A stretch of DNA of 24,833 nucleotides from a virus. Where the stretch lies: the IMG/VR virus record IMGVR_UViG_3300025131_000397, positions 1 through 24,833 of that record; one strand, 5' to 3'. Below are positions 6,137-24,290 of this stretch, in pieces. A program made the position numbers and the translations under genes. The notes beneath the pieces were generated by a model. It made no database searches. It was not told the origin of the DNA and worked only from the letters and a program-made list of their open reading frames with translations. Numbering within the stretch: position 1 is the first letter of the stretch; each line of letters begins with the position of its first letter.

Positions 6137-7729
6137 ATGGGATACAGGGGACAAACGCACGGTATTGATTTTGCCAGGGGTGGTTTCAGTTTTGACCAGA
6201 ACATAGACAAGATCCCGATAACCGCGATGGTGGAGGGGACGAAGAACATCAATCTCCACAAGGGGGGCAGGTCTAAGCGGGGAGGAACGTCACACGTAAA
6301 CGGTACGGTGATAACGGGAACGCCGCGCATATGGGGACTGTACCAGTTCAGGCTACAGAACGGCACGGAGTTTATCCTGACGGCAACCTCGGACGGCAAG
6401 ATACAGAAAGATTATAATACGGAATTAAAGACGGGGCTTACCATTGACCGCCCCGTTCACTTTATAACATTTAATAATATGTGCGTTATATGCACGGGAA
6501 ACGACCTTCCGCAGATATGGGACGGTGCCGCGGGTTCCACGACTGATATCGTCAACGAGGCTACCGACTGGGCGGGCGGTAATTATCCCCGTAAGATGAT
6601 TATACACGGCAGGGGAGCGTCCGAGAGGTTATGGGCTATTAACGGCAAGACCGATCCGAACACGGTCTACGCATCGGCTGAGAATCCGGGTGACGGGAGT
6701 ACTGAACCTGATTTCGTTACGGGTGTACTCACCTTTTATATAGATACGGGTGACGGGCATGGCATACTTAACGGTGCCGAGTACGGCGACAGGATCGTAC
6801 TGGCGGGTAAATCATGGACGTACATAATAGACGATACGGACAGTGATACGAGTAAATGGGGTTACAACAAGGCACAGTGGGGCGGGGGAACGGCTACGGA
6901 CAAGACCTTTGTGCAGGTGACCAATGATATTATATCAATGACAGAGGACGGTACGATTTACAGCGTTACCGCAGCCCAGAATTACGGTGACTACAAACAG
7001 GCAACGCTTACAAGGGCTTCCTTTATAGACGAGTATATAAGGGAAAAGATGAAACTCTCCGCGATAGGTGATTTCCACATGGTCTACGACCCGGTACTGA
7101 GGTGCATAAATTTCTTTGTAATGAGGGGTAATCAGTCCGATATAGATACAGCCCTTGTTTATTTTATTGACAGAGGCCCTGAAGAGGGATGGGTGATTAA
7201 GGATAATATAAATTCGGATTCGGGTTTCAAGGCATCATGTTCCGCGCTTGTGCGAAAAGCGGTGGGTGATTTTAAGATATACACGGGTGGTATGAGTGAC
7301 GGTTACGTATGGGAACTGGAAACATCCACTCATAACGATAACAGCGCGGCGTATTCAAGCGGTTTCAAGACACCAAGGGGGCATCTGGGTGACCCTAGGA
7401 TTACCAAGCGTTTTGACCAGGGAAGGATACTCGTTGATGCGAAAGGGCCTTATAACCTGCTCGTTGATTTCTGGGTAGACGGCTCGTATGTGGGGCAGGA
7501 GACTATATCGCTTGCCGGCATAGGTTCGACCTACGGTGGTGGTACGACCTACGGCGCGGACGGAAGTGCGGGTACGTACGGTGGCGGGGAAGTGATAGAG
7601 GTTGCCTTCCCTATAAAGAAAGTCGGTTTGAGGATAGAATATCATATATTTAATAATAATGTGGACGAGGATTTCTTTATATCACAATTATTAACGGATT
7701 TTAAACCATTATCGAGGATGGCAAGTTAG
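6137..7729 (+). CDS. Packaged-DNA stabilisation / tail protein, P22 gp10-like
   Basis: A 530-residue protein, predicted mostly beta-strand, it probably forms the tail-tube ring that extends from the gp4 adaptor and keeps DNA in the head. Evidence is position plus a repeated strand pattern around RIWGLYQFR, EFILTATSDGKIQ and NNMCVICTGNDLPQIWDG, the propeller-like pattern of gp10-type proteins. A Gly/Thr-rich stretch (STYGGGTTYGADGSAGTYGG, about residues 460-480) is a flexible insert. The start is six bases after the previous stop, with GGGGGGA about 13 bases upstream, inside the previous gene. Confidence 0.75.
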   Translation: MGYRGQTHGIDFARGGFSFDQNIDKIPITAMVEGTKNINLHKGGRSKRGGTSHVNGTVITGTPRIWGLYQFRLQNGTEFILTATSDGKIQKDYNTELKTGLTIDRPVHFITFNNMCVICTGNDLPQIWDGAAGSTTDIVNEATDWAGGNYPRKMIIHGRGASERLWAINGKTDPNTVYASAENPGDGSTEPDFVTGVLTFYIDTGDGHGILNGAEYGDRIVLAGKSWTYIIDDTDSDTSKWGYNKAQWGGGTATDKTFVQVTNDIISMTEDGTIYSVTAAQNYGDYKQATLTRASFIDEYIREKMKLSAIGDFHMVYDPVLRCINFFVMRGNQSDIDTALVYFIDRGPEEGWVIKDNINSDSGFKASCSALVRKAVGDFKIYTGGMSDGYVWELETSTHNDNSAAYSSGFKTPRGHLGDPRITKRFDQGRILVDAKGPYNLLVDFWVDGSYVGQETISLAGIGSTYGGGTTYGADGSAGTYGGGEVIEVAFPIKKVGLRIEYHIFNNNVDEDFFISQLLTDFKPLSRMAS

Positions 7730-8121
7730 TGTACGAAAAAGATTATATAGAATATGACGGTTACGGGTTAAAAGAGGTCAGGTGCATGAGGTGTGATTCA
7801 CCCGTAAAGAAACGCGGTATAGTCGAGCATATATTACCCGATGGCGGTAAGGTCAACGTGTACGCGGTCAAGACGATGAGTAATTTCAGTCCCGTCCCCT
7901 TTACGCTCTCAGACGGCAGTTTTACGAATATTCTGATGTGCAGGGATTGTAATAAGAAATATACCGATAACGGGGAGGAACGAAAGGGCATGGAGAAACA
8001 GGTGAGAAGGGGGCTTGAACTTGAGGCTATCGGAAAGGGCAGGTCACAGGAAGAGATCGGGGCTATCAGGAAAAGGGCGGAGAAGATTAAAATTATTAAA
8101 ATACATACTTTCGGAGGTTAG
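7729..8121 (+). CDS. Small zinc-ribbon-like protein of unknown role
   Basis: The 130-residue protein starts with GTG at 7729, which shares a base with the previous stop (TAGTG); GAGG at 7714-7717 is the likely ribosome site. Two CxxC pairs (C19/C22 and C71/C74) could bind one zinc ion as a ribbon, with a beta-rich stretch between them. The C-terminal third is a basic, helical tail (KGMEKQVRRGLELEAIGKGR). It lies between the tail-tube gene and the fibre gene, so it may be a minor virion or assembly factor. No specific family was recognised. Confidence 0.65.
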   Translation: MYEKDYIEYDGYGLKEVRCMRCDSPVKKRGIVEHILPDGGKVNVYAVKTMSNFSPVPFTLSDGSFTNILMCRDCNKKYTDNGEERKGMEKQVRRGLELEAIGKGRSQEEIGAIRKRAEKIKIIKIHTFGG

Positions 8122-14998: not shown

Positions 14999-17900
14999 AT
15001 GGGCTTATTTGATGATATTGAATTAGAGGAAGATGGTGTTTCCAGTGCCACATTACCTGAACCTCCCGGCAAGAAAGGGGAGTTATTCGGGGATGTAGAT
15101 ATTGGGGATATTGACTTGGAAGTTGATGTTTCGGATACCGTACCATCTGAACCTCCCCAAAAAGGAAACCTGTTTAAGGATATAGATATTGGGGAACCCG
15201 GCGATACCAAGGAATTCACAGTAGAAAAAGAAAAACTTGTTACTGCTAAATCCGAACCTTGGGGAAAAGCCTTAGTAGAGGAACACTTAGAAGATATGGG
15301 TGAACCTTTCGGTGATAAGATGGAACAGTCCTTTATTGCCTATGAAGCGGCTTTGGCTCTTGGTCTTAGAAAATTAATATGGCCTGACCGTCCTATACCC
15401 CCAGATATAACGGAAGCGATTACAGACCCAGAAAGAAGCGAAACGGCAACTGACCACATTCAGGCTCTTGTCGGCACTAAAGGTTGGATCGGTGATATTC
15501 TGGATGAATTACAACCCGAATCAAAAGGGGGGCCACTTGAGATATTACCGGATCATATATTTGGCATACCAACAGCAGAAATCCCAAGACACGCCTTAAA
15601 TGAATTTGCCGACCTTACCGGTCTTATCCTGAACCCAAAACAGGTTCTCGTACTAAACCCTATATTTAAGTTTGGATTGGCTACCTTAAAGTATACAGGG
15701 ACAAAAGCTGTAAAGTGGGTAAAGTCAATCTTGGAAAAATCAAAGATTAAACCCGGTGAATCAGGTAAGGCCGCGGCGGATAAAGTAAAGCAGGTGGTTT
15801 CAGAAGAAGCGAAAATACCAGTAGAAGAACTTGACAAAGCAAGCCGTGAAGGGATAAAGGAATTAGAGGTTGAGGTAAATAAAGTCGGCGCGGAGAGTGA
15901 GGCTAGATTATTAAAGAACAGAATACCTGAAGAAGGTAGGGGAACGGGAGAACCGTTTGATCCTGTTTTGGAAAAGCGGTTGGCATTAGAAACCGAACTT
16001 AAAGGCGATATAAGGGCAAAGGTTGAGGGGGAACAGGAGTCGTCCGGGATAGAGGTATTGGAAGGCGGAGAATCACCAAAAACAACCAAGCAGGATGTGT
16101 ATGCTGAAACTGGTGGATTTGCAGAATCGGAAATAGCACAGAATCCTCCCCTTGTTGAAATGCCCGAACTTGTATCAATAGCCAAGGATATCACAAAAAA
16201 ATACCCCCGTATTGTCAGGAAACTTATTGCGGCAGGCGGAGGGCGGAAGGCTATTGGTTCAGCGCGACTGCCAAAAGGGGGGGGTGATGCTGAAATAGAC
16301 CTGTTTGCAGGTATGTTCCAGGACCCCGTAGTAGCCGCAAAGGTACTGGCTCACGAAATAGGCCATGTTGTTGATTGGTTGCCCAGTAAGATTATGACCA
16401 GGGGTAATATCCTGGGCAGGATAGCATCACTTAAAAAGTACATGAAAACAATCCTGGAGGAATATCCGGGAGGCCCCGGCCCGCTCACTGCAAAGGACAG
16501 GGCAAAGATAAGGCGTTTAGCTGAAAAGATGGCCAAAGAAGGCCAGAAGACTACGCCGGAGGTTACACCGGAGGATGTATTATCTATATGGCGTGATGTA
16601 AAATCTTTTGAGAAGAATAGGCCCTTAAATGATTGGGTAGCAAATCTGACAAGAGAACAGAAAGTCGAGGTAATGAAAGCTGCTCTCAAGGGCAAGTTCC
16701 CGGAATGGGCTGATTTTGCACAGGTATACAAATCTGCCGAACCAGACGTTAAGGCATTATACCGTAAATTATTAAAAGAGGAAATTGAAAAACGGAGGTT
16801 GTTTGAAAAGGATGCCATCCTTAAAGAACTAAAAACTCTTACTCAAAAATGGAAGCCGTTTTCTGAGGGACTCGATCCTAAATTCACCAAATACCGATAT
16901 TCAAATGAAGAACTGTATGCAGATGCGGTAAGCGTACTCCTGAATAACCCGGAACTGCTCAAAAGCACAGCCCCTAATTTTTACAAGGCGTTCTTTAATT
17001 ACCTTGAAAGAAAACCCGAATTTAAGGAATCATACCTTACTATATTAAGCAGGGCTAAAGAAGGGGCAACAGAGACTCTTCTTGAAAGGCAGAAGAATCT
17101 CCATGCAATGTTTGCAAGGGGGGAAAAGGCCAGGGCGGAAACCCTTGAAAAAGAGCCTGGTACCGTATTTGATGTGCTTAAAAAAGAACTCATTGATAAT
17201 AATGCTCCCAGGATAAAGATGGTTAAAGATGCCAAGAAGAAGGGGGCTTATATTCCTCCCGAAAAAAACCCTATATACTGGGCAGAAGAATATCCATATA
17301 CCCATGCACCATATTTTGAATATTTGAGAAATGTCGAAAACAGCGTAAGGATACCGCTTAGAGATATTGGCCTTTCAGATGTTGAACTTGGCGAATATTT
17401 GATGATGCGCCGGATCATGACACAAAGAGCCACGATTGCTAATCCATTAGGACATACACCGGCAACGGCGGCAAGGGACATGGATCTCCTGAAAACACAA
17501 TTAGGGTCTGAGAAGTTTGCGCGACTCGAACAGGCGGCAGGGGATTTTAGTCGTGCCAGGGCGGAACATATGCTTCCGGTCTTAAAGAAAGCCGATATGT
17601 ATAGCGGAGAATTACAGAAGGCTATTGAAGACAATATAGCGAATTATACAAAATTTGAGGTAAGAATATCTTTAGAGAAGAAGTTTGGTAAAGGTGAGGC
17701 CGGTAGATTATTTAAACAAGAGGGAACATTTCAGGAAATCGAGAACCCTTTTACGGCAACACTAGTCCAGGATGCGGCTTTAATGAGGGCGGCGGCGGTA
17801 AAGATGGAGAGAAAGATGTTTGTCGATACAATGCAACCTGCGTTTTCTGATTTTATTCTACCCGCCAAGAAGAAATGGAACGGTAAGTTTCACGCACCGG

Positions 17901-19654
17901 ATGGAAATGCTGCCCCGGCAGATATGGGGATGGTAACATATTTACATAAGGGGGAGGTTGAGGCATGGTATCTACCGAAAGATATTGCTGATAACTTTAA
18001 CAAGAACAGTCTTGAGGCCGGAAAGATTGTAAGGGCGTTGGGATATGTAACTGCACCATTTAAAGAAATATTTGTCGGTAAAAATCCGTTTTGGATGACA
18101 TGGAATATACAAAGAGATATAAAGGCTATGGCCAAGCACTTACCCGGCGGTAATATTCCCAAGGCGTTATGGTATACAACCAAAGCGATTCCCGACACCT
18201 TTAAAGATGTGTTCCTTAATATGTCAACTAAGGAAGTATCTGAGATGTATAAGCAAAAATTGCTCATTGTTGGCAGATATTATTCCGCCCTTGATATAGG
18301 GCCGGATAAACACATGGATAAAGTTATGCGTTTGTATGGTTTGTCCGAGAAAAAATATGAGAATAATGTAATAAAGCCGTTTGTTAAATTGTGGGAATTT
18401 TTGGACAAACCCGGCAGGTTTACTGAAAGAATAGTAAAGATTGGAGCCCATAAACAATTACAGGAAACCCCTGTGATACAACAGAAACTCTTCTGGAAAG
18501 ATTACTTCCCCGTAGCCAAGGAGATAGCAGGGGTGAAACCGCCACCGGGATACGCACGACAGGGTATGGGAATTGAGATAGAAAAAGAAATAGCCCATAT
18601 TGTAAGGACTCAGGCAGGATCTCCCGATTTCCTGAGAAAAGGTCATTTGTCATCATTGTATAACAATCTATTCCTGTTCTCAAATGCGGGCAAGGAGGGT
18701 TGGAGGGCTTCTATGGAAGCTGCTAAAAATAACCCCCTTTCCTATACATGGAAAACTGTCAAATATGACGTTATGCCAAAACTCATAATGTATGGGGGGA
18801 GTATTGGTTGGTTAGGGCCAAAGGTAAAGAGAATGTACGCTAATATCCCGGACAGGGATAAGGCAAATTATATATGTATACCCCTGGGTTTTACAAAAAG
18901 CGGAAAAACGGCATATTTTGTGATGCCTCACGATTTCATGGGACAGGCTATTGCCGGTACTCTTTGGAAAAGTCTTAATACGGAGAAGACAGAAGATATA
19001 CAGGCGTTATTTGATTTCACAATGGGGGGATTGCCGTATTCAAGTCTCAACCCGGTTATTGGTGGTAGTATAGATACTATGAGATATATAACAGGTAAAA
19101 ATCCTTATAACAGTTGGAGTGGTAGATACGTGGTTCCTGAGAGCGTGTTCAGAGCCGGGGGCCAGAGATCGCATAAGGCGTTTGCAAAACATATGTGGAA
19201 TACTATGGGTGGTGCAGTTGTATACAGGTTCAGGCATGATAACATAGATAAAATAAAAGGTGAATTAGAATCTCTGTATGGGATTCCCCTGGTTGGAAGT
19301 GGTTTGTCAAGGTTTGTCAGGGTGAGTGATTACGGCGTAAGAGAGCAACTTAAAGAGGTAAAGAATGAAGAGAAGCAGATTAATGCAAATGATTTATTAG
19401 ATGCCAAAGACGTATTATATAAATTGGTAAACGATGGTGTTGATGCGTTGACGGATGCAGACATGAAGGCATTGGGGAAAAAACCCGGAATTTTACTTGA
19501 TAGCACCCTTAAAATGCTTGTGGAACAGAAGAATGTGCCTGCACTTGAGGAATATCTTTCTGCCAGTACGATTAAAGAGCAAGAGGCTGTTATTAAAAAA
19601 TGGCATGAAATAGAAAAAGATTATCCTGCCCCATCATTATTAGACCAGAATTAA
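14999..19654 (+). CDS. Giant ejection protein with HEIGH metallopeptidase domain
   Basis: At 1551 residues this is the largest gene, at the end of the ejection block. AAGGG lies about six bases before ATG 14999. The first 70 residues hold three related LF-D-I/V acidic motifs (GLFDDIELE, ELFGDVDIG, NLFKDIDIG) separated by PEPP/SEPP linkers. Residues 452-456 are HEIGH followed by VVD, and NEELYADAV (about 636-644) could give the third zinc ligand, as in gluzincin peptidases. Residues about 1040-1100 contain VGKNPFWMTWNIQRDIKAM, resembling domains of large multi-domain phage proteins (LPD families). Known ejection proteins enter the cell with the DNA and span the envelope. A peptidase might cut peptidoglycan-linked or host proteins, or self-process. 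Confidence 0.72.
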   Translation: MGLFDDIELEEDGVSSATLPEPPGKKGELFGDVDIGDIDLEVDVSDTVPSEPPQKGNLFKDIDIGEPGDTKEFTVEKEKLVTAKSEPWGKALVEEHLEDMGEPFGDKMEQSFIAYEAALALGLRKLIWPDRPIPPDITEAITDPERSETATDHIQALVGTKGWIGDILDELQPESKGGPLEILPDHIFGIPTAEIPRHALNEFADLTGLILNPKQVLVLNPIFKFGLATLKYTGTKAVKWVKSILEKSKIKPGESGKAAADKVKQVVSEEAKIPVEELDKASREGIKELEVEVNKVGAESEARLLKNRIPEEGRGTGEPFDPVLEKRLALETELKGDIRAKVEGEQESSGIEVLEGGESPKTTKQDVYAETGGFAESEIAQNPPLVEMPELVSIAKDITKKYPRIVRKLIAAGGGRKAIGSARLPKGGGDAEIDLFAGMFQDPVVAAKVLAHEIGHVVDWLPSKIMTRGNILGRIASLKKYMKTILEEYPGGPGPLTAKDRAKIRRLAEKMAKEGQKTTPEVTPEDVLSIWRDVKSFEKNRPLNDWVANLTREQKVEVMKAALKGKFPEWADFAQVYKSAEPDVKALYRKLLKEEIEKRRLFEKDAILKELKTLTQKWKPFSEGLDPKFTKYRYSNEELYADAVSVLLNNPELLKSTAPNFYKAFFNYLERKPEFKESYLTILSRAKEGATETLLERQKNLHAMFARGEKARAETLEKEPGTVFDVLKKELIDNNAPRIKMVKDAKKKGAYIPPEKNPIYWAEEYPYTHAPYFEYLRNVENSVRIPLRDIGLSDVELGEYLMMRRIMTQRATIANPLGHTPATAARDMDLLKTQLGSEKFARLEQAAGDFSRARAEHMLPVLKKADMYSGELQKAIEDNIANYTKFEVRISLEKKFGKGEAGRLFKQEGTFQEIENPFTATLVQDAALMRAAAVKMERKMFVDTMQPAFSDFILPAKKKWNGKFHAPDGNAAPADMGMVTYLHKGEVEAWYLPKDIADNFNKNSLEAGKIVRALGYVTAPFKEIFVGKNPFWMTWNIQRDIKAMAKHLPGGNIPKALWYTTKAIPDTFKDVFLNMSTKEVSEMYKQKLLIVGRYYSALDIGPDKHMDKVMRLYGLSEKKYENNVIKPFVKLWEFLDKPGRFTERIVKIGAHKQLQETPVIQQKLFWKDYFPVAKEIAGVKPPPGYARQGMGIEIEKEIAHIVRTQAGSPDFLRKGHLSSLYNNLFLFSNAGKEGWRASMEAAKNNPLSYTWKTVKYDVMPKLIMYGGSIGWLGPKVKRMYANIPDRDKANYICIPLGFTKSGKTAYFVMPHDFMGQAIAGTLWKSLNTEKTEDIQALFDFTMGGLPYSSLNPVIGGSIDTMRYITGKNPYNSWSGRYVVPESVFRAGGQRSHKAFAKHMWNTMGGAVVYRFRHDNIDKIKGELESLYGIPLVGSGLSRFVRVSDYGVREQLKEVKNEEKQINANDLLDAKDVLYKLVNDGVDALTDADMKALGKKPGILLDSTLKMLVEQKNVPALEEYLSASTIKEQEAVIKKWHEIEKDYPAPSLLDQN

Positions 19655-20426: not shown

Positions 20427-20464
20427 TTTTTAACTCAAAAAAGAAAAAAGAAAGGAGTTAAAAA
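20427..20464 (+). promoter_or_regulatory. Hairpin masking the ribosome site of the NrdD-like gene
   Basis: TTTTTAACTC (20427-20436) and GAGTTAAAAA (20455-20464) are exact reverse complements around an 18-base purine loop. The right arm contains most of GGAG, the Shine-Dalgarno site for ATG 20468, so folding would hide it. This could make translation depend on temperature, a binding protein or ribosome passage from upstream. It has no T-run on the right, so a terminator in the forward direction is unlikely. Confidence 0.5.
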
Positions 20465-20467
20465 AAT

Positions 20468-20890
20468 ATGGAAGACGTTGTAACAGACAAGATTGGCGAG
20501 TTTGTAGAGAAAGTAGAAGGTAGTGAGATGTTTGAGATAGCGGGGTTGGATAGAGTTGGTGAAGAAGATGAAGTATTTGTTTTGTCTGATACAACAAAGA
20601 AAGACGGGATATATGGAAAATACACCGAAGTTGAAGTAAGGGAAGTGGTGGATAAACCGTTAAAGGATATTTGGGACGTAATTGCGAATAACAGGAAGAA
20701 ACTTGTTTGCCACGGCGTTACGAGAATCGTGGGATATTATTCAAGAACGCATAATTGGAACAAGTCAAAAGTAGGGGAGTTGAGAGATCGTATCGTGAGC
20801 CGTGAGCATGGCGGTTATGGTTTTAACGGCTTACAGACAGATACCAAGGCGAGGGAAGATGCCCTCACAGCCGTAGGTAATTTGGAATAA
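20468..20890 (+). CDS. Stand-alone NrdD-like glycyl-radical domain protein
   Basis: A 140-residue protein. Residues 86-105 read RIVGYYSRTHNWNKSKVGEL and continue RDR. This follows the C-terminal glycyl-radical segment of class III (anaerobic) ribonucleotide reductase NrdD: R-x-x-G-Y, then W-N-x-x-K-x-x-E-x-x-x-R, with Gly89 where the radical glycine should be. Ser100 replaces a frequent Gly. The preceding CxxC zinc pairs of NrdD are absent; only Cys81 is present. The first 80 residues are acidic with a helical and a beta part and are not the NrdD catalytic barrel. No NrdD barrel or NrdG activase is in the window. It might repair or supplement host NrdD, or be a repurposed fold. The resemblance is by pattern only. 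Confidence 0.55.
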   Translation: MEDVVTDKIGEFVEKVEGSEMFEIAGLDRVGEEDEVFVLSDTTKKDGIYGKYTEVEVREVVDKPLKDIWDVIANNRKKLVCHGVTRIVGYYSRTHNWNKSKVGELRDRIVSREHGGYGFNGLQTDTKAREDALTAVGNLE

Positions 20891-20898
20891 CTACTTAT

Positions 20899-20935
20899 CG
20901 GGTTTTTACCGGTTGTACCCGGAAAACAACCGGTA
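20899..20935 (+). promoter_or_regulatory. Hairpin / possible pseudoknot before the phosphoesterase start
   Basis: TACCGGTTGT (20907-20916) pairs exactly with ACAACCGGTA (20926-20935), ending four bases before ATG 20940. CGGGT (20899-20903) can pair with ACCCG (20917-20921) in its loop, which would form a pseudoknot or an alternative fold. The only SD-like bases (CGGA) are in the loop. The structure probably controls translation initiation. Confidence 0.5.
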
Positions 20936-20939
20936 CATT

Positions 20940-21626
20940 ATGGGTAGACTTAAACTGGAGAAACATAATGTATTAATTATAGGTGATACGCATATACCTT
21001 ATCAACAGGAAGGCTACCTGGAGCATTGTTTATCCGTTCAAAGGGACGAGCGGTGCGGCACTGTAGTCCACATAGGTGATCTGGTTGATAATCTCAGTTT
21101 ATCGAGGCAACAACGTTATAACCCGGATGCCCAATCACCGAATGATGAGATTGAGTTGACGATTAAGCAACTGAAGCCATGGTTTAAGGCGTTTCCAAAA
21201 GTCAAATTTACCTATGGTACTCATGATAAGAGATTGAGCAATAGGGCGACTGAGGCAAATGTACCGTCAATCGGGATCAAGTCATTCCGGGAGACATGGC
21301 AGTTGCCGAGAGGTTGGGTCGATAATCTTGAGTTTGTTATAGACGATGTACTCTATAAACACGGCACCGGGACAGGGATAAACGCGCACAGGGAACTGGC
21401 TATATACAACAGGATGTCGGCAGTCCAGGGTCATAGTCACGCATTTGCAGGGATCGCGTATGTAGCTAATCAGAGGGAATGTTTGTTTGGGATGAACGTT
21501 GGCACGGGGATCGATAACAGCAAACTTGCTTTTGCATACGGAATCAGTTTTAAGGTTAAACCGATTGTTTCGTGCGGTGTTGTCTATAATGGAGAAGACC
21601 CAAGGTTATTCAGGATGAGGCTTTGA
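20940..21626 (+). CDS. Calcineurin-like metallophosphoesterase
   Basis: A 228-residue protein with the ordered metal-binding motifs of the family: D16-x-H18 (IGDTH), G46-D47-x-x-D50 (HIGDLVD), G93-T94-H95-D96 in place of the usual GNHD, H141 (YKHG) and G164-H-S-H167. These coordinate two metal ions for phosphodiester or phosphomonoester hydrolysis. The Asn-to-Thr change in GNHD removes a usual metal ligand and may alter activity. I chose ATG 20940, just before the family's first strand; TTG 20913 lies inside the hairpin stem. The substrate is unknown: nucleic acid ends, cyclic nucleotides and a dinucleoside polyphosphate are all possible. It lies between the NrdD-like gene and an acidic protein. 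Confidence 0.85.
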   Translation: MGRLKLEKHNVLIIGDTHIPYQQEGYLEHCLSVQRDERCGTVVHIGDLVDNLSLSRQQRYNPDAQSPNDEIELTIKQLKPWFKAFPKVKFTYGTHDKRLSNRATEANVPSIGIKSFRETWQLPRGWVDNLEFVIDDVLYKHGTGTGINAHRELAIYNRMSAVQGHSHAFAGIAYVANQRECLFGMNVGTGIDNSKLAFAYGISFKVKPIVSCGVVYNGEDPRLFRMRL

Positions 21627-21633
21627 TGATAAT

Positions 21634-21885
21634 ATGGAAGAAAAGGAAAAAAAAGAAACAGAACAGGAACTATACGACTGGCAGATAGAGTTTAAGGGTT
21701 ACATAGAAATAAAAGGGAAGTATGAAAAGATGCCGACCGGTTATCCTATGTTGCGGTTTCTGGAAAGGGCGATACACGAAGCAATAGCAACGGATCCACA
21801 TAAATTCAGATTATACAAATACAATGCGGAAGTAACTGATTATGACGGTGAGGAAGAGATAGATTTCGAGAGTGATATGGAGTGA
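21634..21885 (+). CDS. Small acidic protein, unknown
   Basis: An 83-residue protein starting seven bases after the phosphoesterase. It is charged at the N-terminus (MEEKEKKETEQ), then has an amphipathic stretch with FLERAIHEAIATDPHKFRLY, and ends very acidic (DGEEEIDFESDME). No family was recognised. Its stop overlaps the next start (TGATG), which supports a shared operon. The ribosome site is weak (GAGG 13 bases upstream). Confidence 0.55.
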   Translation: MEEKEKKETEQELYDWQIEFKGYIEIKGKYEKMPTGYPMLRFLERAIHEAIATDPHKFRLYKYNAEVTDYDGEEEIDFESDME

Positions 21886-22349
21886 TGATTAGAAAGAAGA
21901 TTATACTGCCTTTTTTTATAATAGTTGTCTCGTTTTTCGTAACAGGCTCCCCGCATTGTTTAGCGGGTATTGATATAGTTGCGCGTGACAACAAGGCCCC
22001 GATATTCCAGGCTACGACTGATACGGAGTGTATAAAAGAAACGGGAGTGAATCTATCCTGGGTTGAATCTTTTAAGACTGAGAGTTATGTGCATTACGTT
22101 AATAGGCCCGTAGAAAACGCTTTGGTATGCCATAAGAAAGAGATGCTGCTCTTTGTTATCAAGGGTTTTGAGGAAATATATGTCATCTGCGGGCAGGAAT
22201 ATCTAGACGGCACTCAGTATTGGCAATTATTTACAGTGGATATATATGACGATGAAGATGAATTTACCCGGCGTTACAAGTTAATGTTGCTTGAATTAGT
22301 TAATATGATCCCCGAATCTGAAAAGAAGTGCATAATAAAAAATGACTAA
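21885..22349 (+). CDS. Secreted protein with four cysteines, unknown
   Basis: A 154-residue protein with a clear signal peptide: MIRKK, a hydrophobic core (IILPFFIIVVSFFVTG), then a likely cut after CLA before GIDIV. The mature part has four Cys (TEC, LVC, VIC, KKC), enough for two disulfide bonds, and mixed beta/helical character with an acidic DIYDDEDEF stretch. It should act outside the cytoplasm. Phage-encoded periplasmic proteins can block superinfecting phage or inhibit lysozyme; neither is demonstrated. The start is ATG 21885 (TGATG overlap); GTG 21882 adds one residue. Confidence 0.65.
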   Translation: MIRKKIILPFFIIVVSFFVTGSPHCLAGIDIVARDNKAPIFQATTDTECIKETGVNLSWVESFKTESYVHYVNRPVENALVCHKKEMLLFVIKGFEEIYVICGQEYLDGTQYWQLFTVDIYDDEDEFTRRYKLMLLELVNMIPESEKKCIIKND

Positions 22350-23924: not shown

Positions 23925-24066
23925 TTTAGATGATGCAAAGTCTAGGCAGGAGTATGAGTGGTTTTTACGGGAAGTACTGGACGATGATGACCGTATTGCG
24001 AGGATTATAAAGAAAGACTCCATCGGAAGTACGGATGAGGAATTTCAGGATTATAAAAATTTATGA
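23917..24066 (+). CDS. Small acidic protein, unknown
   Basis: A 49-residue protein starting at ATG 23917 and overlapping the membrane-protein gene by eight bases, with GGGAGG about 12 bases upstream. An upstream in-frame start at 23878 would overlap far more. It is acidic and helical (EYEWFLREVLDDDDRIARII). No family was recognised. Its stop overlaps the next start (ATGA at 24063). Confidence 0.55.
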   Translation: MSDLDDAKSRQEYEWFLREVLDDDDRIARIIKKDSIGSTDEEFQDYKNL

Positions 24067-24290
24067 AAAAGATAATTTACACAAAAGATAAGTGCGGTGG
24101 TTGTATCACCTTGAAAAGGGACTTGGATCGGCAGGGCGCGGTATATGAGGAGCGTGATTCCTCACGCCTGGAACGTCCTGAAGACGAGATTGACATAAAG
24201 GCTTTTATTGAGGAAGTCGTAATGAAAAATATAGCCCCAAAGGATATTTCATTCCCAATCGAATATGACTATCAGGCCGAAAAAATGTAG
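24063..24290 (+). CDS. Glutaredoxin/NrdH-like redox protein
   Basis: A 75-residue protein. It begins KKIIYTKDKCGGCITLKRDL, the first strand, CxxC active site (Cys11-Gly-Gly-Cys14) and helix of a thioredoxin fold, followed by a second strand (AVYEERD). These proteins reduce disulfides; NrdH-type members feed electrons to ribonucleotide reductase. The typical cis-Pro and GG elements of a full glutaredoxin are not clear, and the C-terminal part (FIEEVVMKNIAPKDISFPIE) is only loosely like the family, so it may be a divergent short form. It overlaps both neighbours. Confidence 0.65.
   Translation: MKKIIYTKDKCGGCITLKRDLDRQGAVYEERDSSRLERPEDEIDIKAFIEEVVMKNIAPKDISFPIEYDYQAEKM

Follow-up and report, generated by a model that had tools for sequence, protein, structure and literature searches.

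The gene at positions 20,468 to 20,890 of the window (the whole stretch of DNA analysed here, a virus fragment of 24,833 bases) very probably encodes a trans-acting glycyl-radical subunit for a class III ribonucleotide reductase, whose Gly89 would enter the barrel of the host NrdD. It is also likely that the class III reductase of anammox bacteria and other Planctomycetota, and of at least one phage, is an obligate two-subunit enzyme with its radical on a small dissociable protein, and that several phage lineages took up this protein free of NrdR, driving dNTP supply. An earlier note on this DNA had proposed a stand-alone NrdD glycyl-radical end that acts with host NrdD, and the proposal is supported by profile matches, an invariant glycine, predicted NrdR operators and co-occurrence.

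The window gene and its protein

The gene and the parts of its product are as follows (coordinates are those of the window).

20452..20457, plus strand: Shine-Dalgarno-like AAGGAG, 10 bases 5' of the ATG (read from the sequence)
20468..20890, plus strand: gene for a stand-alone glycyl-radical-domain protein of 140 aa (open reading frame; match to the C-terminus of PF13597; 76-sequence family alignment)
20468..20701, plus strand: N-terminal alpha/beta domain, residues 1-78 (AlphaFold2 pLDDT 82-94 over residues 1-80)
20708..20746, plus strand: putative glycyl-radical loop, residues 81-93 (hhalign to intact NrdD, E 2.5e-22; predicted loop, low pLDDT)
20732..20734, plus strand: codon of Gly89, the equivalent of the NrdD radical glycine (P. 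copri Gly711; invariant in 76/76; 8p23 alignment)
20747..20809, plus strand: helix with THNWNKSKVGELRDR, residues 94-114 (predicted structure; family alignment; hhalign to NrdD)

The open reading frame is real and had been rightly described in the earlier note, which recognised the C-terminal pattern of NrdD in residues 86-108 (RIVGYYSRTHNWNKSKVGELRDR) and placed Gly89 at the radical position. In an hmmscan search the protein matches PF13597 (NRDD) with an E value of 4.5e-5 and 22.8 bits, residues 77-109 aligning with positions 531-560 of the 562 in the profile. This score lies below the whole-protein cut-off of 26.2, as is expected for a protein that covers just the final 5% of the model; since the match falls at the C-terminus of the NrdD model and the protein has 140 residues, only the glycyl-radical end is present. 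TIGR02487 (NrdD) also matches the protein (E 0.0028), and PF13597 is the only family found by a Pfam scan at E <= 1, which gave no match to PF01228. Profile-profile comparison of the family with intact planctomycete NrdDs (99.5% probability, E 2.5e-22) places G89 on the radical glycine. When the family profile was compared with Protein Data Bank sequences, the only match was a weak one (E 0.29) to the NrdD of P. copri (8p23), in which the family glycine aligns with chain residue 715, the published Gly711. Gly711 is the radical site of the P. copri enzyme and faces the initiator Cys416 (PMC11226230).

The barrel, NrdG and the zinc CxxC pairs are missing from the 140 residues of the window protein, as had been noted (the record itself is a fragment), and the only cysteine in its translation is C81. 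The zinc CxxC pairs are also missing from its relatives, and the rest of the 24.8-kb record holds no second NRDD match or piece of NrdD. The predicted helix of residues 94-114 is, by alignment, the counterpart of the tail helix of NrdD, which runs across the barrel top. The N-terminal domain stands where NrdD has its zinc-binding part; it may dock onto NrdD. In the AlphaFold2 model Gly89 lies on a loop that joins the N-terminal domain to the helix, as the structure check in the earlier note anticipated; the pLDDT there is about 55, so the model is consistent with a radical loop and not decisive. The alternative raised in that note, a repurposed non-radical fold, is unlikely.

Fold searches with the model of the small protein gave no convincing match. 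HicB was the best (Z 5.4), but the match is middling and limited to the N-terminal domain. An anti-CRISPR protein found by sequence in the Protein Data Bank (E 0.28) was dismissed as chance-level.

Distribution and conservation of the family

A scan of IMG/VR found 40 viral contigs with matches. Among about 85,000 species of bacteria and archaea, 39 contigs matched, most of them from anammox planctomycetes (Scalindua, Brocadia, Jettenia, and Anammoxibacter) and a minority carrying ordinary full-length NrdDs of other groups. Members of the family occur in 58 of 62 genomes of the Brocadiales (anammox bacteria), in about 20 other Planctomycetota and on about 40 viral contigs. No recognisable relative was found among INPHARED phages or PLSDB plasmids; Vibrio phage matches (E 0.3) were set aside as confined to the N-terminal domain.

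Members of the family have 97-160 residues. T85, R86, V88, G89, Y90, N96, W97, N98, S100, K101, E104, and L105 are invariant in the alignment of 76 proteins, and the N-terminal 80 residues vary freely across the family, with one predicted alpha/beta fold. In a second planctomycete group, outside the Brocadiales, the stand-alone protein has 105-125 residues and ends in LQHMTRVVGYFSRVENWNKSKVGELKDRQKGNYS. The two-gene arrangement may extend past Planctomycetota, as judged from sequence matches: a genome of the Omnitrophota (G019) encodes a 99-aa stand-alone protein and an NrdD with the motif, and three genomes of the same phylum (G487, G629, and G671; loci L324, L325, and L326) have short reading frames of 62-74 aa with weak matches to the radical-loop profile (E values from 5e-6 to 1e-5).

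NrdD proteins that have lost the radical glycine

Genomes with the small protein nearly always also have a separate full-length NrdD, encoded on a different contig or at a long distance. In Brocadia and its relatives this NrdD ends in YGISRIVGYFSRINNWNKSKIGEL, with an intact RIVGYFSR, alongside the stand-alone protein. The Scalindua NrdD tail reads, for example, YGINKRDSHEKINNWDRSKIEEL and that of Anammoxibacter YGINKGGCCSKKVNYWDKTRIKEV, while in a third Brocadiales clade the motif has drifted, with RTDGY, RTDSY, RSDNY, and RLDDY all represented. The motif RxVGY(Y/F)SR is missing from 26 Brocadiales NrdDs with complete tails, two of which, from the third clade, keep the Gly-Tyr pair in a degraded setting. 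It is also missing from 18 NrdDs of the second planctomycete group, in which hardly any trace is left. On the barrel tree, motif loss requires at least six state changes with all groups counted. In one Brocadiaceae genome (G049, locus L135) that also carries the stand-alone protein, NrdD reads RIGDYFSR instead of RIVGYFSR, and the radical glycine has apparently been lost recently.

An assembly frameshift does not account for the missing motif, since 46 of 47 tails are without it in the other frames as well; the lone match, RLDGY (L137), is the degraded in-frame tail itself. A simple splitting of NrdD into two genes was rejected for the bacteria because their NrdD runs past the zinc site into a degraded tail, and the small protein has its own N-terminal domain and lies at another location.

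The rest of these enzymes is well preserved. In 40 aligned NrdDs (27 without the motif and 13 with it), C272, C475, C476, and C497 (numbering of the NrdD at locus L092) are invariant, as are the zinc cysteines 739, 742, 753, and 756; C272 aligns with P. copri Cys171 and the C475/C476 pair with the initiator cysteine. The barrel dN/dS between sister species is 0.02-0.09. The loci inspected preserve the gene order nrdR-nrdD-nrdG2, and a match to NrdG2 adjoins nrdD in nearly all Brocadiales genomes. A model of the Scalindua NrdD superimposes on the P. copri NrdD with a Z score of 24.1 (430 residues, 3.8 A), and its best fold matches reach about residue 734-762, immediately ahead of the lost loop; only the fold match was used because the pLDDT of the model is modest (63.7). 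By these comparisons the motif-less NrdDs are not pseudogenes and look functional except for the missing glycine. An activase encoded beside a glycine-less NrdD needs a substrate, and the stand-alone protein would supply one.

Several more distant loci were seen. Two planctomycetes with genomes of 7-9 Mb (G125, locus L286, and G189, locus L285) carry a distant NrdD branch in which Asp replaces the radical glycine (TRIADYF(C/S)RT..EWNRSK), and the stand-alone protein was not detected in either. Distant NrdD-like proteins of about 650-715 aa at L289-L293 (G076, G082, G094, G349, and G326) have an NRDD match that ends before the radical motif. In one Anammoxibacter genome, nrdD and nrdG are separated by a 92-aa glutaredoxin-like gene (L095:1141-1419, minus strand).

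Regulation, co-occurrence and other reductases

NrdR is a dNTP-sensing repressor of ribonucleotide reductase genes. Paired 16-bp sequences resembling NrdR boxes lie 5' of the cellular small genes (at L171, TCACAATATATTGTGT and GTACAAAATATTGTGT at a spacing of 31 bp). Of 76 cellular upstream regions, 29 contain a pair scoring >=23, compared with 15 of 471 control reading frames from the same loci (p 3.5e-17); the 76 regions include orthologous promoters, which are non-independent samples. When the spacing was left free, 26 of the 35 best pairs fell at exactly 31 bp. These predicted operators would place the cellular small gene under NrdR control. The phage copies, including the window gene, are without NrdR-box pairs (1 of 25 at p<=0.05).

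The cellular small genes do not appear to come from prophages where inspected. The Scalindua gene, for example, lies on a 430-kb contig downstream of an apparent cell-wall cluster, in which the upstream reading frames, judged from their translations, are presumably murC-murB-ddl-ftsQ.

In an evenly sampled set of 392 planctomycete genomes, 30 of the 34 that have lost the motif carry the small protein (4 do not), and those that have kept it are divided into 22 with the protein and 23 without. The association gives a Fisher p of 2.8e-4, a value that ignores descent; an independent-pairs test, which allows for descent and leaves too few independent contrasts to carry much information, finds the co-occurrence not significant. 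Two genomes (G028, 2.5 Mb, and G117, 1.8 Mb) have a motif-less NrdD and no detected small protein, and these genomes may be incomplete. The other two of the four exceptions are G125 and G189, which have Asp at the site.

A class I or II reductase (PF02867) was found in 40 of the 62 Brocadiales genomes, many of them with a glycine-less NrdD. None was found in 19 of the 23 genomes of the second planctomycete group or in either Anammoxibacter genome (5.9 and 7.6 Mb), and the two-part NrdD therefore appears to be the sole reductase there. Genome bins may miss genes, yet not consistently across 19 of 23 genomes. Among the four second-group genomes that do have a class I/II reductase is G365, the NrdD of which is intact.

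Phage copies of the gene

The window carries a T7-type portal protein (phrog_156) and a major head protein (phrog_283). Three genes follow the radical-domain gene.

20913..21626, plus strand: calcineurin-like metallophosphoesterase (PF00149, E 6.3e-6; phrog_221)
21634..21885, plus strand: conserved phage protein of 83 aa (YDWQIEFKGYIEIKG), part of a shared block (73-92% identity in L008-L010, L013, and L019)
21882..22349, plus strand: secreted-looking protein of 155 aa, part of the shared block (61-66% identity in L008-L010 and L019; about 31% in L011-L013)

The block common to related phages consists of the secreted protein, the radical-domain gene, the metallophosphoesterase and the YDWQIEFKGY protein, and in phages L006 and L010 the metallophosphoesterase likewise lies directly 3' of the radical-domain gene. 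In the tree of small proteins the phage copies occupy several separate positions. The copy in the window groups, with weak support, with those of phages L006 and L008 in the Scalindua/Anammoxibacter half, and the phage N-terminal domain diverges from the cellular ones (end branch 0.83). From this weakly supported protein tree, the host of the window phage is likely an anammox bacterium of the Scalindua/Anammoxibacter type.

Elsewhere in the window, positions 24063-24290 encode a 75-aa glutaredoxin-like protein (KCGGC), which could be an NrdH-like reductant because its nearest matches among the loci compared (L176 and L177) adjoin anammox class II reductase genes. Positions 14999-19654 encode a phage protein of 1551 aa without a PHROGs match, and a 130-aa reading frame among the structural genes (7729-8121) has a weak match to HNH endonucleases.

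Another phage, known from the 81.6-kb record G421, has a gene for a 97-aa stand-alone protein, GITRIVGYFSKILNWNKSKKGELKDRQKGNYEVK, with RIVGYFSK, and encodes, about 5 kb from this gene, an NrdD barrel that is 46-69% identical to Scalindua NrdD in matched stretches. The NrdD frame ends in CENCNSGDVEGIEYYQ followed by a stop codon, just past the fourth zinc cysteine and short of the radical loop. In contrast to the bacterial enzymes, this NrdD looks truncated at the split, and G421 is, as read from its sequence, the clearest candidate for a natural experiment with a split NrdD and a radical part. The same frame (L040:12860-16123 and L299) spans about 1630 aa and is interrupted by two intein-like sequences, the first of them inserted precisely at the catalytic cysteine conserved in the barrel (YC before SSHS in relatives). 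Phage record G434 has a single intact NrdD instead.

A proposed radical subunit acting in trans

In the proposed mechanism, the radical-SAM activase NrdG of the host would generate the radical on Gly89. The Gly89 loop and the helix that follows it would then enter the host NrdD barrel, occupying the position that a C-terminal loop on the NrdD chain itself normally fills, and Gly89 would hand the radical to the NrdD cysteine that initiates nucleotide reduction, after which the barrel chemistry would proceed as usual. Since NrdD has lost its own glycine in the likely hosts, the small subunit would be part of the working enzyme there, and the radical is probably supplied by this detached protein. 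The phage copy, having no recognisable NrdR operator, would be made regardless of dNTP feedback in the host, and the phage would gain a radical subunit, and hence dNTPs, during infection.

Alternative explanations

The small protein could be a spare part only: much as YfiD/GrcA and T4 Y06I serve pyruvate formate-lyase, it would replace the tail of an oxygen-cut NrdD and be otherwise dispensable. Its novel N-terminal domain joined to a radical tail parallels the architecture of YfiD, the Brocadiaceae have an intact RIVGYFSR NrdD in addition to the small protein, and the 2021 YfiD paper raises the possibility that other glycyl radical enzymes have such parts too (PMC8683613). However, there is no glycine to damage in the NrdD of Scalindua, Anammoxibacter, the third Brocadiales clade, the second planctomycete group or G421, and as an account of the whole family this one is unlikely. 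The spare-part analogy drawn in the earlier note may hold for Brocadia and its relatives, in which the small protein is a possible YfiD-type spare part, but the inferred hosts have no intact radical site to rescue. Since the NrdD of those hosts is without a glycine, the small protein looks like a regular radical-bearing subunit and not a repair part. Phages make decoys of host enzymes, and this is a recognised strategy; the phage copy might act as an inhibitor or decoy, which would engage the NrdD barrel or NrdG but yield no useful radical, a role that the divergent phage N-terminal domain would suit. Such a role is improbable, as the Gly-Tyr loop and helix are equally conserved in phage and cellular copies, G421 pairs its small protein with its own loop-less NrdD, and lytic phages usually want more dNTPs, not fewer.

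The glycine-less NrdDs themselves could be read differently. If they were on the way out after takeover by a class II reductase, the small protein would do another job. Although the PF02867 counts in the Brocadiales fit such a takeover, it is highly improbable with the barrels under strong purifying selection and all catalytic cysteines kept, with no PF02867 in most second-group genomes or in Anammoxibacter, and with predicted NrdR operators at the small gene. The idea that these NrdDs are aminoacyl radical enzymes using Ser or Ala at the site, with the small protein as a regulator, is scarcely to be credited. Ala, Ser, and Thr radical enzymes do occur in the glycyl radical enzyme superfamily (PMC11528403), and both Ser and Ala turn up often at the aligned position (in 14 and 6 of 46 NrdD tails). 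Yet D, E, N, C, P, and other residues also stand there, length changes and loss of the next Tyr are frequent, the NrdD of phage G421 stops short of the site, and the invariant glycyl motif of the stand-alone protein would be left unexplained. A radical subunit acting in trans on NrdD remains the preferred reading.

Comparison with known systems

Glycyl radical enzymes are generally regarded as bearing the radical glycine on the catalytic chain. To our knowledge, detached radical parts have been validated only for pyruvate formate-lyase, namely YfiD and Y06I. Spare parts have been described only for that enzyme and are a matter of speculation for others (PMC8683613). The glycyl radical of class III reductases has been described as lying on the catalytic chain (PMC9531940), and no earlier description of a two-part class III reductase was found in the open-licence literature.

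The small protein shares with the NrdD (PF13597) glycyl radical domain the C-terminal RIVGYYSR...NWNKSK..EL.DR loop and helix with the aligned radical glycine; the cellular small genes have NrdR-type operators, and in the hosts nrdG adjoins nrdD. Unlike NrdD, it is a separate protein of 97-160 aa with a new N-terminal alpha/beta domain and with no barrel, zinc cysteines or ATP-cone. It resembles YfiD/GrcA and T4 Y06I (PF01228) in being a stand-alone radical domain akin to the C-terminus of a glycyl radical enzyme and in occurring in bacteria and phage, but it is related to NrdD and not to pyruvate formate-lyase. It also appears to be an obligatory part, unlike YfiD/GrcA, because the partner NrdDs often have no glycine of their own. 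Its N-terminal domain is predicted to be folded, whereas the N-terminus of YfiD is disordered (PMC8683613). By analogy, the small protein would work like a GrcA for NrdD, although it is neither NrdD nor GrcA.

The arrangement also recalls class I ribonucleotide reductase (NrdA and NrdB), in which a catalytic subunit is combined with a separate radical-bearing subunit. Only the organisation is alike, however, since the small protein is unrelated and would carry an oxygen-sensitive glycyl radical, not a metal/tyrosyl one. Like the aminoacyl radical enzymes, which have been described in other branches (PMC11528403), the motif-less NrdDs are relatives of glycyl radical enzymes without the canonical glycine. 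Those enzymes have Ala, Ser or Thr on the same chain, whereas here the loop is degraded or absent and the glycine is on another protein.

Implications

The small protein is a candidate for a detached radical part of ribonucleotide reductase. It is widespread across a single phylum, where the glycine of the catalytic chain has disappeared on several occasions. The question left open by the 2021 YfiD paper (PMC8683613), whether such parts serve other glycyl radical enzymes, becomes directly testable. The finding suggests that a class III reductase can be built like a class I enzyme, from a catalytic and a radical subunit, and it would identify the reductase of many genomes that seem to be without a working one. 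For the phages of anammox bacteria, which are important in the nitrogen cycle, a radical subunit is apparently worth carrying.
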